A DNA stretch of 64,000 bases, from contig JAGWFT010000001.1 of the NCBI GenBank assembly GCA_028867755.1, positions 164,727 to 228,726 of the forward strand, read 5' to 3'. The position numbers and the translations under genes are program-made. Source of the stretch: Nitrososphaerota archaeon (GTDB taxonomy: Archaea; Thermoproteota; Nitrososphaeria; Nitrososphaerales; Nitrosopumilaceae). Below are positions 39,328 to 54,098 of the stretch, in pieces (the stretch's first letter is position 1; each line of letters starts with the position of its first letter). The notes under the pieces were generated by a model. That model ran no database searches and was not told the DNA's origin. It worked only from the letters and a program-made list of their open reading frames with translations.

Positions 39328-39915
39328 ATGTTTGAAAAGTTCAGAAAGAAAAAGGACGAATTTAAGCCGGATTCCACTGAAAAGGAGGAAGAAAGTGTTA
39401 CATCTGAAACCATACAATATCAGCCTCAAGAGATCAGACCGGAGGAAACTGATGTTATTGAGCAATCTAGAACCAAACCTACTGAACAAGTAAAAATATC
39501 AGAACCTATGCAACAAAGAGCAATGAGTGCATCTGGAGAAGATATAGGAATAAGAGCCCTAATGGACAAACGAACTAAGCTTGAGGAAGCAATTGATTAT
39601 GTAGGATTAATGATTAAGAATTTGAAAGATAAGAGAACGAATCTGGAAAAGAGCATAGAAGACGAATCTGTGGACATTAAGAATCTTAAGGAGAAACTGA
39701 TTAAGGTTGGTCAGTATCTTGAAGAGGAAAAACAGGGAATAAAGACATTACAACAAAAGAGAGGCGAGGTTGAAAGAGAAGCAGATGATGTAGCTGCAAT
39801 TATCAACAACCTGCGTGAAAAATTATTGAATATAGATAGGATAGTAAATGAAGAAGGCAGTAAGATAGAGAAATTTAAAGATACTAGACCCAAGTCTGAA
39901 TCTTCGTTCGGCTAG
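39328..39915 (+). CDS. Coiled-coil protein, unknown function
   Basis: 195 residues. Charged Lys/Glu-rich N terminus, then a heptad-like coiled coil (~85-185) with KLEEAIDYVGLMIKNLKDKR and EKSIEDESVDIKNLKEKL-type repeats. No signal peptide. A TATA-like TTTTTATATATT lies at about -25. Its 3' end overlaps the convergent next gene by 4 bases. Role unknown; structural or adaptor. Confidence 0.6.
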   Translation: MFEKFRKKKDEFKPDSTEKEEESVTSETIQYQPQEIRPEETDVIEQSRTKPTEQVKISEPMQQRAMSASGEDIGIRALMDKRTKLEEAIDYVGLMIKNLKDKRTNLEKSIEDESVDIKNLKEKLIKVGQYLEEEKQGIKTLQQKRGEVEREADDVAAIINNLREKLLNIDRIVNEEGSKIEKFKDTRPKSESSFG

Positions 39916-40289
39916 AAAGTAAAGCCTTCTTTTAGAATACTGTTAAGATTTTCCTTTATTTCCTCTTCGGATGACAGTGAGTCAAGATCTCTAATTAATA
40001 CCTCAGTTGCAAGACATTGATTCTTTGAGAATTGATAATAACAATCTAGTTTTTCTTGATAGGTTTTTGCATTGTAATAAATGCTCCAAAAGTTTTCTGT
40101 AGAGTGCTGTACGTAAAGTAAAAATTTTCTAATGGTCGTCTCAATTTTAGAGGAAGGATTGTCTTTCATTAGTCCAATTAGAATCTGCTCTAACTTACTG
40201 TCCAAGTTTGATTCATAAATCAATTGGTAAATGCCCCCGTCTTTTGTCACGCTTGCTTTATGTGGCTGTATCATAAAAGCTTTCATCAA
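39912..40289 (-). CDS. Small helical protein, unknown function
   Basis: 125 residues, soluble and mostly helical. SKIETTIRKFLLYVQHSTENF and YYNAKTYQEKLDCYYQFSKNQC are the most ordered segments. No motif recognised. Likely start at 40289; an internal Met at residue 2 makes no difference. Confidence 0.5.
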   Translation of the reverse strand: MMKAFMIQPHKASVTKDGGIYQLIYESNLDSKLEQILIGLMKDNPSSKIETTIRKFLLYVQHSTENFWSIYYNAKTYQEKLDCYYQFSKNQCLATEVLIRDLDSLSSEEEIKENLNSILKEGFTF

Positions 40290-40403
40290 TAATTTTCAAA
40301 AAATCATTCATTTACACATAATATATTTAGCTATCTTAAAAAAATTAAAATTTCAAATATGAAATTAGTCATAATGCTTAAATAATTTTCATGCGTATTA
40401 ATG

Positions 40404-40597
40404 GTCCCTGTCAGAGGACAACTCCTAAGACAGGAATCATGCAGCAAACATGCGTGATACGGTCAAGGGTAAATCCTGCCGTAGAAGATCCAGCGGAGAA
40501 ATCTCAAGGAAGTGGTGACAATGGTCATCATGTCTTGGAATGCATGTATTCCCCCGCATGACGTGTGTGAACCACACGTCTGCATGATAGAATTTTT
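40404..40597 (+). ncRNA. Candidate structured non-coding RNA, unknown class
   Basis: In a 450-base gap without a gene. A TATA-like CTTAAATAA near 40377-40385 predicts a start near 40404-40408, and the end has a T-run at 40592-40596. Perfect paired arms: CCTGTC (40407-40412) with GACAGG (40429-40434); ATCATGCA (40436-40443) with TGCATGAT (40581-40588); GACGTGTG (40560-40567) with CACACGTC (40573-40580). Other short hairpins are GGAAT/ATTCC and GGTGAC/GTCATC. I compared it in mind with RNase P, SRP, 5S and box C/D patterns and found no match. Confidence 0.6.
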
Positions 40598-40741
40598 CCA
40601 ATTACAATAAACTAAGCTATGTAAATTATTCAAATAGATTGTACAATAATAGCAGTTTAGTGATTGTCTGAAAGAATGTAGCCTCAGCGATCAGAGAAAT
40701 TGATGCGGTACATTCTTCCTAGTCAGATTATCCAGGACAGT

Positions 40742-41380
40742 CTAGATGTAGCGGGCAGAAGATGATTGACTGCTGGCTGGCATGGAAGGCAGTTTGTCGT
40801 TGACTGCTGCCTCTGCAACTGCTGCAGCTTCTTGCATAATCTTCTCTGATTCTTCGTCTGAAACTCCAGAATCAATTCCAAAGTCGCCACCATGGAATGT
40901 ATCTGTCATTAATCCACCTAGCATTTCAGTCATTCCTGACAACTCGCGATCTGCTTCTGGCATAAACTGTACCAGAGATGATCTTAGGCTCTTCATCAAG
41001 CCAATTGTTGGCATGATTGTGACAAGTGTATCTCCCAGATCGTGGAAGGTACTGAGTCTGAGCACTATTTGTTCTAGTGCAATTCTAGCATTTCCGAGAA
41101 GCTTGGTAACTTTCCTAACTTCGGCTAATTCTTTTGATAAAACCTTACTAGCGGTAGTATCATGTTGTTGAGTGGCAACTACAATTCTTTTGAATAACTT
41201 TTCATCTTTTTGTTTTAATTTTGTAAGCATTCCATCAAGTTTTCCAGTTTGGACCTGGAGTCTTTTTACTGCCTGTTCCATCCTTGGCTTCAGAGGACCT
41301 TTTGGTCTTATAGTGTCGTTAAATCTTTCACCAATGCTTGGTGTCTGTGGTTTTTGCCAATTGTTAGTAAAGTTTGTCAT
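40742..41380 (-). CDS. cdvB: ESCRT-III-family cell division protein CdvB (paralogue 2)
   Basis: 212 residues, collinear with paralogue 1 from LKPRMEQAVKRLQ through KLFKRIVVATQQHD and LAEVRKVTKLLGNARIALEQ. The acidic C-terminal region is SDEESEKIMQEAAAV and the end has DKLPSMPASS, matching an L-P-x-x-P MIM2-like core. Both copies appear functional. Thaumarchaea are known to carry several CdvB paralogues; their division of labour is unresolved. The promoter palindrome is shared with paralogue 1. Confidence 0.9.
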   Translation of the reverse strand: MTNFTNNWQKPQTPSIGERFNDTIRPKGPLKPRMEQAVKRLQVQTGKLDGMLTKLKQKDEKLFKRIVVATQQHDTTASKVLSKELAEVRKVTKLLGNARIALEQIVLRLSTFHDLGDTLVTIMPTIGLMKSLRSSLVQFMPEADRELSGMTEMLGGLMTDTFHGGDFGIDSGVSDEESEKIMQEAAAVAEAAVNDKLPSMPASSQSSSARYI

Positions 41381-42046: not shown

Positions 42047-42076
42047 ATGTTAACCGAAATTCTTATAAGATATAAT

Positions 42077-42991
42077 ATGACACGCGAATCTTTCGGTTCT
42101 GGCGGACGTTGTCCTCGTTGTGGAAAAGGTCCAATGGTTACAGATAGCACCACAGGTGAAATGTTTTGTGGTGGATGCGGATTTGTTATGACAGAACGTG
42201 TTGAGGAATCTGGACCAGAATGGAGATCATTTTCTAAAGAGGAACATGAAGATCGAAGTAGGACAGGAACTCCAACATCACTTGCAATGCATGATATGGG
42301 ATTAGCAACAATAATTGGTCCTGCTGACAAAGATGCATCAGGAAAACCACTTTCTGCATCTATGAAAAGTACAATTGAGCGACTTAGAACTTGGGATAGC
42401 CGAAGTCAAGTTCATGAACCAGTAGATAGAAACTTTAGACAAGCTTTCAGTGAGCTTGATAGACTAAAAGACAAACTTGCATTATCAGATGCAGTAATCG
42501 AAAAGACTGCATACATCTATCGAAAAGCACTTGATAAAGGGCTTGTTAGAGGAAGATCAATTCCTGGACTCGTAGCTGCTGCACTTTATGCAGCATGTAG
42601 AGATACTGAAACTCCTAGAACTCTGACCGATGTTGCAAGTGGAATCAACATTAAAAGAAAAGATGTTGCACGATGCTATAGACTTTTACTCAGAGAACTT
42701 GATCTCAAGATGCCTGTAGTCGATCCAATAAAGTGTGTAGCAAGAATTGCAAGCAAAGCTGGATTAAGTGAAAAAACAAAACGAAAGGCCCTACAAATTC
42801 TAAAAGATGCCGCAGAGATTGAAATTTCTGCTGGCAAAGATCCAATGGGACTTGCAGCTGCTGCTCTGTATCTCTCTTGTGTAATGAATGGAGAGAATAA
42901 GACACAGAAAGATGTTGCACAAGCTGCTGGAGTAACCGAAGTAACAATTAGAAATAGATACAAGGGATTAAAAGAATCCCTCAAGCTCTAA
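42077..42991 (+). CDS. tfb: Transcription initiation factor TFB
   Basis: 304 residues from ATG at 42077 (an upstream in-frame ATG at 42047 overlaps the TATA region and is unlikely). Zinc ribbon CPRC-x15-CGGC (~12-33), B-finger region with GPEWRSF, and two cyclin-fold repeats (AYIYRKALDKGLVRGRSI, and QILKDAAEIEISAGKDPMG with VTEVTIRNRYKGLK). Recruits RNA polymerase to TBP-bound promoters. Several TFB genes occur in many thaumarchaea. Confidence 0.93.
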   Translation: MTRESFGSGGRCPRCGKGPMVTDSTTGEMFCGGCGFVMTERVEESGPEWRSFSKEEHEDRSRTGTPTSLAMHDMGLATIIGPADKDASGKPLSASMKSTIERLRTWDSRSQVHEPVDRNFRQAFSELDRLKDKLALSDAVIEKTAYIYRKALDKGLVRGRSIPGLVAAALYAACRDTETPRTLTDVASGINIKRKDVARCYRLLLRELDLKMPVVDPIKCVARIASKAGLSEKTKRKALQILKDAAEIEISAGKDPMGLAAAALYLSCVMNGENKTQKDVAQAAGVTEVTIRNRYKGLKESLKL

Positions 42992-43448
42992 ATTTTTTTG
43001 AAAATAATTTTATTTGGTTAAACGATCAATAACGATTGAAAATCATCGAGAGAAAAAATGTGGAGATGCAAAGGATGAAAATGTATCATTAAACTATTGT
43101 AAAACAATTTGGGCGTGGCCCTTATCGCAGACTTGCAGAGATTACCTCTTACGATCCACAAAGTGGATTCACATTAAGATCTGCGAAGCCACGCTCATTT
43201 GGCAGTAGATTTTATATCCTTCTGCATTAATTTTTATAGAAGATTAAAGTATTTATCATTTTATGCATATTTTTTGTCTTTAAATTAATAATTATTCAAA
43301 TTTTTTTAAAAAAGGAAATAGAGGGGTGTGACTACATATGTCATTTATACAATATTTACAAGAATTAAAAGTCAACAAAAAAACTCGATTACAATTTAGT
43401 CTAGAAAAACTTTAGCGTTTATTAAGACACATAATATTGAGGAGCTTA
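42992..43448. other. Intergenic region between tfb and gtrA
   Basis: No protein gene seen. It contains one strongly folding element at 43111-43196 (separate entry) and AT-rich spacer with the gtrA promoter at the end. Confidence 0.55.
43111..43196. ncRNA. Nested inverted-repeat element: structured RNA or MITE-like
   Basis: Outer arms GGGCGTGGC (43111-43119) and GCCACGCTC (43188-43196) with one G-T wobble. Second stem TCGCAGA (43125-43131) with TCTGCGA (43180-43186). Inside are two hairpins: AGAG-ATTAC-CTCT (43137-43149) and ATCCAC-AAA-GTGGAT (43154-43168). A TATA-like GGATATAAAATC sits to its right for minus-strand transcription, while the wobble favours plus. ATTTGG lies at both outer flanks. 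Confidence 0.5.
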
Positions 43449-53843: not shown

Positions 53844-53988
53844 ACTGTAAAAAATTATTCAAAAAAAGCACTGTTCTCATTGAATTGTTATTATCAATAA
53901 AAGAATTATTGAAAATACAATTATTAGTTGTAATAATTATGATCAATTGTTAAATATCATGAAAACGTATAATGATTAATGAAGAAAG

Positions 53989-54098
53989 ACGCAAATTCTA
54001 ACGACTGAATTTGCGTGGTCCTGTGAAAAACAGTACATAGTAGGTGCACAAAGGTGCGCAAGTGGCAAGAGAATGCTTTTGCCTATACAGGACCACGC
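53989..54098 (+). ncRNA. Candidate switch-like RNA with two mutually exclusive stems
   Basis: Hairpin A: ACGCAAATTC (53989-53998) with GAATTTGCGT (54007-54016). Stem B: GCGTGGTCCTGT (54013-54024) with ACAGGACCACGC (54087-54098), both perfect. They share GCGT (54013-54016) and cannot form together. A TATA-like CGTATAATG (53966-53974) is about 25 bases upstream of the 5' arm. The interval has further hairpins (GGCAA/TTGCC). It sits in a 370-base gap after sir2, with no gene seen. Alternatively a small mobile element. Confidence 0.55.

Follow-up and report, generated by a model that had tools for sequence, protein, structure and literature searches.

The window, a 64-kb stretch of DNA from a species of Ca. 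Nitrosotalea (acid-soil ammonia-oxidising archaea), contains a gap of 452 nt (40290-40741) between two conserved genes of the reverse strand, which encode a protein of 125 aa and an ESCRT-III/CdvB-like protein. The gap carries, on the forward strand, a candidate gene of a structured non-coding RNA, preceded by promoter-like elements, ended by a T-run and followed by the scar of a deleted MFS transporter gene (Table 1). A preliminary description had placed a highly structured RNA here, in a gap given as 450 bases without genes, and the folding measurements agree with it: the segment 40404-40597 has a folding energy of -71.1 kcal/mol (z = -4.8 against dinucleotide shuffles, none of 200 being equally good) and ranks first in stability among the 639 tiles of 194 nt in the window, whether corrected for G+C content or not. 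The tile with the third-largest excess of folding stability is located at 53901-54094. The RNA is present in one copy in the window genome. No small ORF is common to the homologues compared, and a small-protein reading of the segment was dropped, as the reading frames are not consistent across copies.

Table 1. Features of the RNA locus in window coordinates; two-sided changes refer to the five-genus alignment, which was fitted to the structure model
Feature	Position	Strand	Remarks
Conserved divergent neighbour gene	39912-40289	-	125 aa, no Pfam family
Archaeal TATA box	40378-40388	+	TTAAATAATTT; preceded by BRE-like AATGC
Promoter-proximal element	40394-40401	+	CGTATTAA; sequence conservation
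Structured non-coding RNA gene (candidate transcript)	40404-40597	+	about 194 nt; model match 40402-40600, 167 bits
P1, 5' hairpin	40407-40434	+	CCTGTC 40407-40412 with GACAGG 40429-40434; inner stem AGGA/TCCT; two-sided change in 4 of 6 outer pairs
P2, long-range closing helix	40436-40588	+	ATCATGCAG 40436-40444 with CTGCATGAT 40580-40588; sequence almost invariant; 98% paired, 5 of 9 pairs never vary
P3, inner closing helix	40449-40560	+	CATGCG 40449-40454 with CGCATG 40555-40560; two-sided change in 7 of 7 pairs
P4 hairpin	40458-40483	+	TACGG..AGG / CCT..CCGTA; two-sided change in 8 of 9 pairs
P5	40485-40536	+	helix AAG/CTT around P5a and P5b
P5a	40490-40509	+	GAAA cap in the subgroup of the window copy
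P5b	40512-40531	+	GACAA[AU]GGUC (GACAAWGGUC), nearly invariant
P6 hairpin	40537-40552	+	two-sided change in 6 of 6 pairs
P7 hairpin	40561-40579	+	ACGTGTG/CACACGT
T-run, putative archaeal U-tract terminator	40593-40597	+	at the RNA end in 35 of 35 copies compared
Scar of deleted MFS transporter gene	40600-40741	+	gene present here in most relatives
ESCRT-III/CdvB-like (Snf7) protein gene	40742-41380	-	conserved neighbour

The predicted fold comprises 61 pairs and consists of a 5' hairpin, P1, and a closed multi-branch domain, in which P2 encloses P3 and the hairpin P7, and P3 in turn encloses P4, P5 (with P5a and P5b) and P6. The long-range pairing between 40436 and 40588, described earlier as 8 bp, is real, but the helix has 9 bp. 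The fold is borne out by covariation in two alignments of homologous copies. In a purely sequence-based MAFFT alignment of 29 Nitrosotalea copies, made with no fit to a model and tested with a structure drawn from one of its rows, 89.9% of the cells were paired and 26 pairs showed two-sided change, where shuffles gave 14.2 and sliding of the partners gave 12 at most. The alignment of five genera gave 92.4% of cells paired and two-sided compensating changes in 41 of the 61 pairs (20.9 in shuffles, at most 17 with partners slid), although these counts are inflated and lean towards the model, to which the alignment was fitted. Compensatory changes in relatives, proposed in the preliminary description as a check of its reading, are thus strongly in evidence. 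The pairs of P3, P4 and P6 vary freely, and P2 and P5b are near-invariant in sequence. Outside the model, the only extra helix was trivial, formed by GGAAA and the T-run.

Both the TATA-like box and the T-run, which had been noted on either side of the segment from its sequence, proved to be conserved in all 35 homologues compared, and the start of TTAAATA is found in every one of them 28-30 nt upstream of the first helix base. A similar box, AATACTAAAATA, is carried by the RNase P RNA genes of the genus. The CGTA of the promoter-proximal element is kept in nearly all copies of Nitrosotalea and of the genera designated g25, g41 and g42, though not in a divergent copy in genome G291. As far as sequence signals can indicate, the RNA has a promoter and a terminator of its own at fixed spacing, as expected of a stand-alone structured RNA gene.

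A pattern scan gave matches in Ca. Nitrosotalea genomes, among them N. devanaterra (LN890280.1, 39289-39482, - strand), the strains TS and FS, and MAGs from soil, and the window was assigned to this genus accordingly. With covariance models, the RNA was found as a single copy in 33 of 37 Nitrosotalea genomes, as well as in four further genera of the family (g25, g41, g42 and g38), the g38 copy being the divergent one of G291 (51 bits, E = 4.6e-16; 76 bits after it was itself added to the model). No credible match was found in the remaining genomes of the 250 of the family or in a sample of 398 genomes of the phylum, searched with strict filters that may lose weak matches. Weak model matches in several genomes (G120, G043, G034, G189, G105 and others) were partial or without most of the internal domain and were regarded as chance; a viral or plasmid origin was dropped, as viral, phage and plasmid records gave no convincing match. 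Among the four Nitrosotalea genomes without the RNA, two (G026 and G034) are incomplete and in one (G028) the gene neighbouring the RNA locus is cut off by a contig end. The fourth, G014, is near-complete (96%); its locus is rearranged, and the RNA, the MFS gene and the 125-aa neighbour are all absent. Since at least this one near-complete genome is without the RNA, it is not essential in every species. In G014, an EtfB-like gene lies beside the CdvB gene (G014:C9:159500-164480; L152, L172), with no RNA there.

The homology, fold, strand and boundaries of 40404-40597 are well supported by these comparisons, which point to a real and conserved RNA. On a joint reading of the evidence, the locus is probably a single-copy stand-alone gene with its own start and end signals, whose product is built of P1 and the closed domain and most likely works in trans as the RNA of a ribonucleoprotein. 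It is best read as an independent trans-acting gene because the RNA is intact where the MFS gene has been lost and is present without that gene in a fifth genus, g38.

Judging from the conserved signals, transcription would be driven by the TATA box at 40378, begin close to 40404 and end in the T-run at 40593-40597, and the transcript would fold into the P1 hairpin and then the closed domain (P2 around P3 and P7; P3 around P4, P5 and P6). P2 and P5b (GACAAWGGUC) are near-invariant in sequence and are therefore probably recognised by something, most simply a protein, for which they might be the binding sites; the conserved sequence in these two elements is what suggests that the RNA probably binds protein. 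No protein partner was found. That this is an unrecognised ribonucleoprotein RNA, confined to Nitrosotalea and related genera of its family and having a function new to archaea, for example as a protein-sequestering or a 6S-like regulator, is a tentative proposal, well short of probable.

An unlikely alternative is that the RNA is a stand-alone sRNA base-pairing with mRNAs, for example via the C-rich loop of P1 (AUCCUCC), which is complementary to the Shine-Dalgarno sequence GGAGG. C-rich loops are a familiar element of sRNAs, and the loop sequence AUCCUCCC, which resembles the anti-Shine-Dalgarno end of 16S rRNA, is kept in most copies. However, the loop varies, reading AUA in L016, AAAACUUCC in G291 and ACAACUCCU in the window copy, and as it is not conserved in every copy, the anti-Shine-Dalgarno idea is retained as no more than an alternative. 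The most invariant sequence, moreover, is found in helices (P2 and P5b) and not in loops, an unusual pattern in antisense regulators.

In most genomes the RNA is located just upstream of the same MFS gene, where a role in cis is conceivable. In that case it would be a 5' leader, an attenuator or riboswitch, the fold of which controls transcription past the T-run; as an account of the RNA in general this appears rather improbable. In all MFS-bearing relatives checked, the gene starts about 85-100 nt 3' of the T-run on the same strand, and transcriptional attenuators, too, are built as an RNA with a U-tract immediately after it. Archaeal ribosomal-protein leaders, such as the S15 leaders with poly-U stretches (PMC7247131), have the arrangement seen in most relatives, with a structured RNA, a U-run directly after it and then a protein gene, but here the protein gene encodes a transporter, and the RNA stays conserved without it. 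The window genome (G000) and G021 have lost the MFS gene; in G018 it is broken, and in G017, where the contig continues into the CdvB gene, remnants are all that is left. Yet in all four genomes the RNA, its promoter and the T-run are still under constraint. A tree of the two upstream proteins places G017, G018 and G021 in one clade, and the loss in the window genome may have been a separate event. Within this clade, identity of the RNA is 90-94% and gaps affect no more than 6 positions, against 73-78% and 55-153 gap positions in the stretch formerly occupied by the MFS gene. Over all four MFS-less genomes, compensating changes occur in four RNA pairs, with 12 of 244 cells broken.

The divergent copy of G291 also argues against a leader: it lies at another locus, downstream of an RNA 3'-phosphate cyclase gene, with TATA spacing and T-run as in other copies, and no MFS gene was found in its genome. 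In the loci examined in other genera, MFS homologues with about 50% identity had no such RNA upstream, and no alternative anti-terminator pairing stood out. A cis leader would be expected to stay linked to the gene it controls, but this RNA is intact where the MFS gene is lost and lies at a different locus in G291, and the reading as an independent trans-acting gene is preferred. Loss of the transporter with retention of the RNA amounts to a natural experiment, which makes the choice between independent gene and leader directly testable. In the residual stretch 40600-40741, a weak hairpin is seen at 40672-40717. Many Nitrosotalea copies share a conserved block at 40606-40650 (about CTATGNAAATTWTTCAAATNNATTRTACAATAATR), which lies between the RNA and the site of the lost MFS gene and is possibly the former promoter of that gene.

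It is very improbable that the segment yields no functional RNA and is a structured element of the DNA or a degenerate sequence. Stem-rich DNA would fold well too, and the reverse strand of 40404-40597 folds equally well, but G-U cells outnumber A-C cells 73:48 in the aligned copies, on account of which the forward strand is favoured; the TATA box and T-run keep their position and orientation, and covariation over a multi-branch fold with invariant loop residues is what RNA typically shows.

The preliminary description had seen no match to RNase P, SRP, 5S, tRNA or guide RNA and had named an Rfam match as grounds for rejecting its reading. None of the 4227 Rfam families matches the window copy, the best scores being far below threshold, and a search with two divergent copies brought no family near threshold; matches at relaxed thresholds, C/D snoRNAs among them, were regarded as chance. 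ARAGORN found no tRNA or tmRNA in the RNA. Together with the compensatory changes, these results support the original reading, in which a structured RNA outside the known classes has a promoter and a terminator of its own. A very divergent housekeeping RNA (RNase P, SRP, 5S, tRNA, tmRNA or guide sRNA) is already largely refuted and hardly credible: in size, single copy and TATA-driven promoter the locus is like the RNase P RNA genes in the same genomes, but RNase P RNA (RF00373; G000:C24:787396-787673) and archaeal SRP RNA (RF01857; G000:C24:483417-483729) are intact elsewhere in the window genome, and the Rfam and ARAGORN results given above also speak against this reading.

The RNA shares with RNase P RNA (RNaseP_arch), which is found elsewhere in 33 of the 37 genomes of the genus, the state of a single-copy archaeal non-coding RNA with a similar BRE/TATA promoter, and with archaeal SRP RNA that of a stand-alone multi-helix RNA of a few hundred nucleotides, but it matches neither family model. 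Closer in kind are the orphan structured RNA candidates known from comparative genomics (PMC2864571) and Tan1 of marine group II Euryarchaeota, a 229-nt RNA abundant in a metatranscriptome (PMC5069720), which are likewise clade-restricted, structured, intergenic and without known function; they belong to other lineages, and the Nitrosotalea RNA matches no Rfam family. A literature search that included few subscription journals yielded no paper describing the RNA. On these comparisons the family itself is new, while its kind, the clade-restricted structured non-coding RNA, is already known.

Ammonia-oxidising archaea are of great importance to nitrification in acid soils, and only a small number of structured non-coding RNAs have been defined in them apart from the universal ones. 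Strong covariation in a gene-sized RNA confined to an acid-soil genus and its close allies points to an RNA-based function missing from present annotation.

A second unannotated structured RNA candidate is located on the forward strand at 43109-43210, between a TFB gene (42047-42991) and a GtrA-like gene (43437), and has no Rfam match. Its predicted fold (z = -4.8) consists of a closing helix GGCGTGGC/GCCACGCU, a second long helix and two hairpins, one of them GAGATTACCTC. The sequence is conserved in nine other loci of the genus with 74-86% identity and an invariant core CAGAGATTACCTCTT, and two-sided changes occur in 4 of its 24 pairs.
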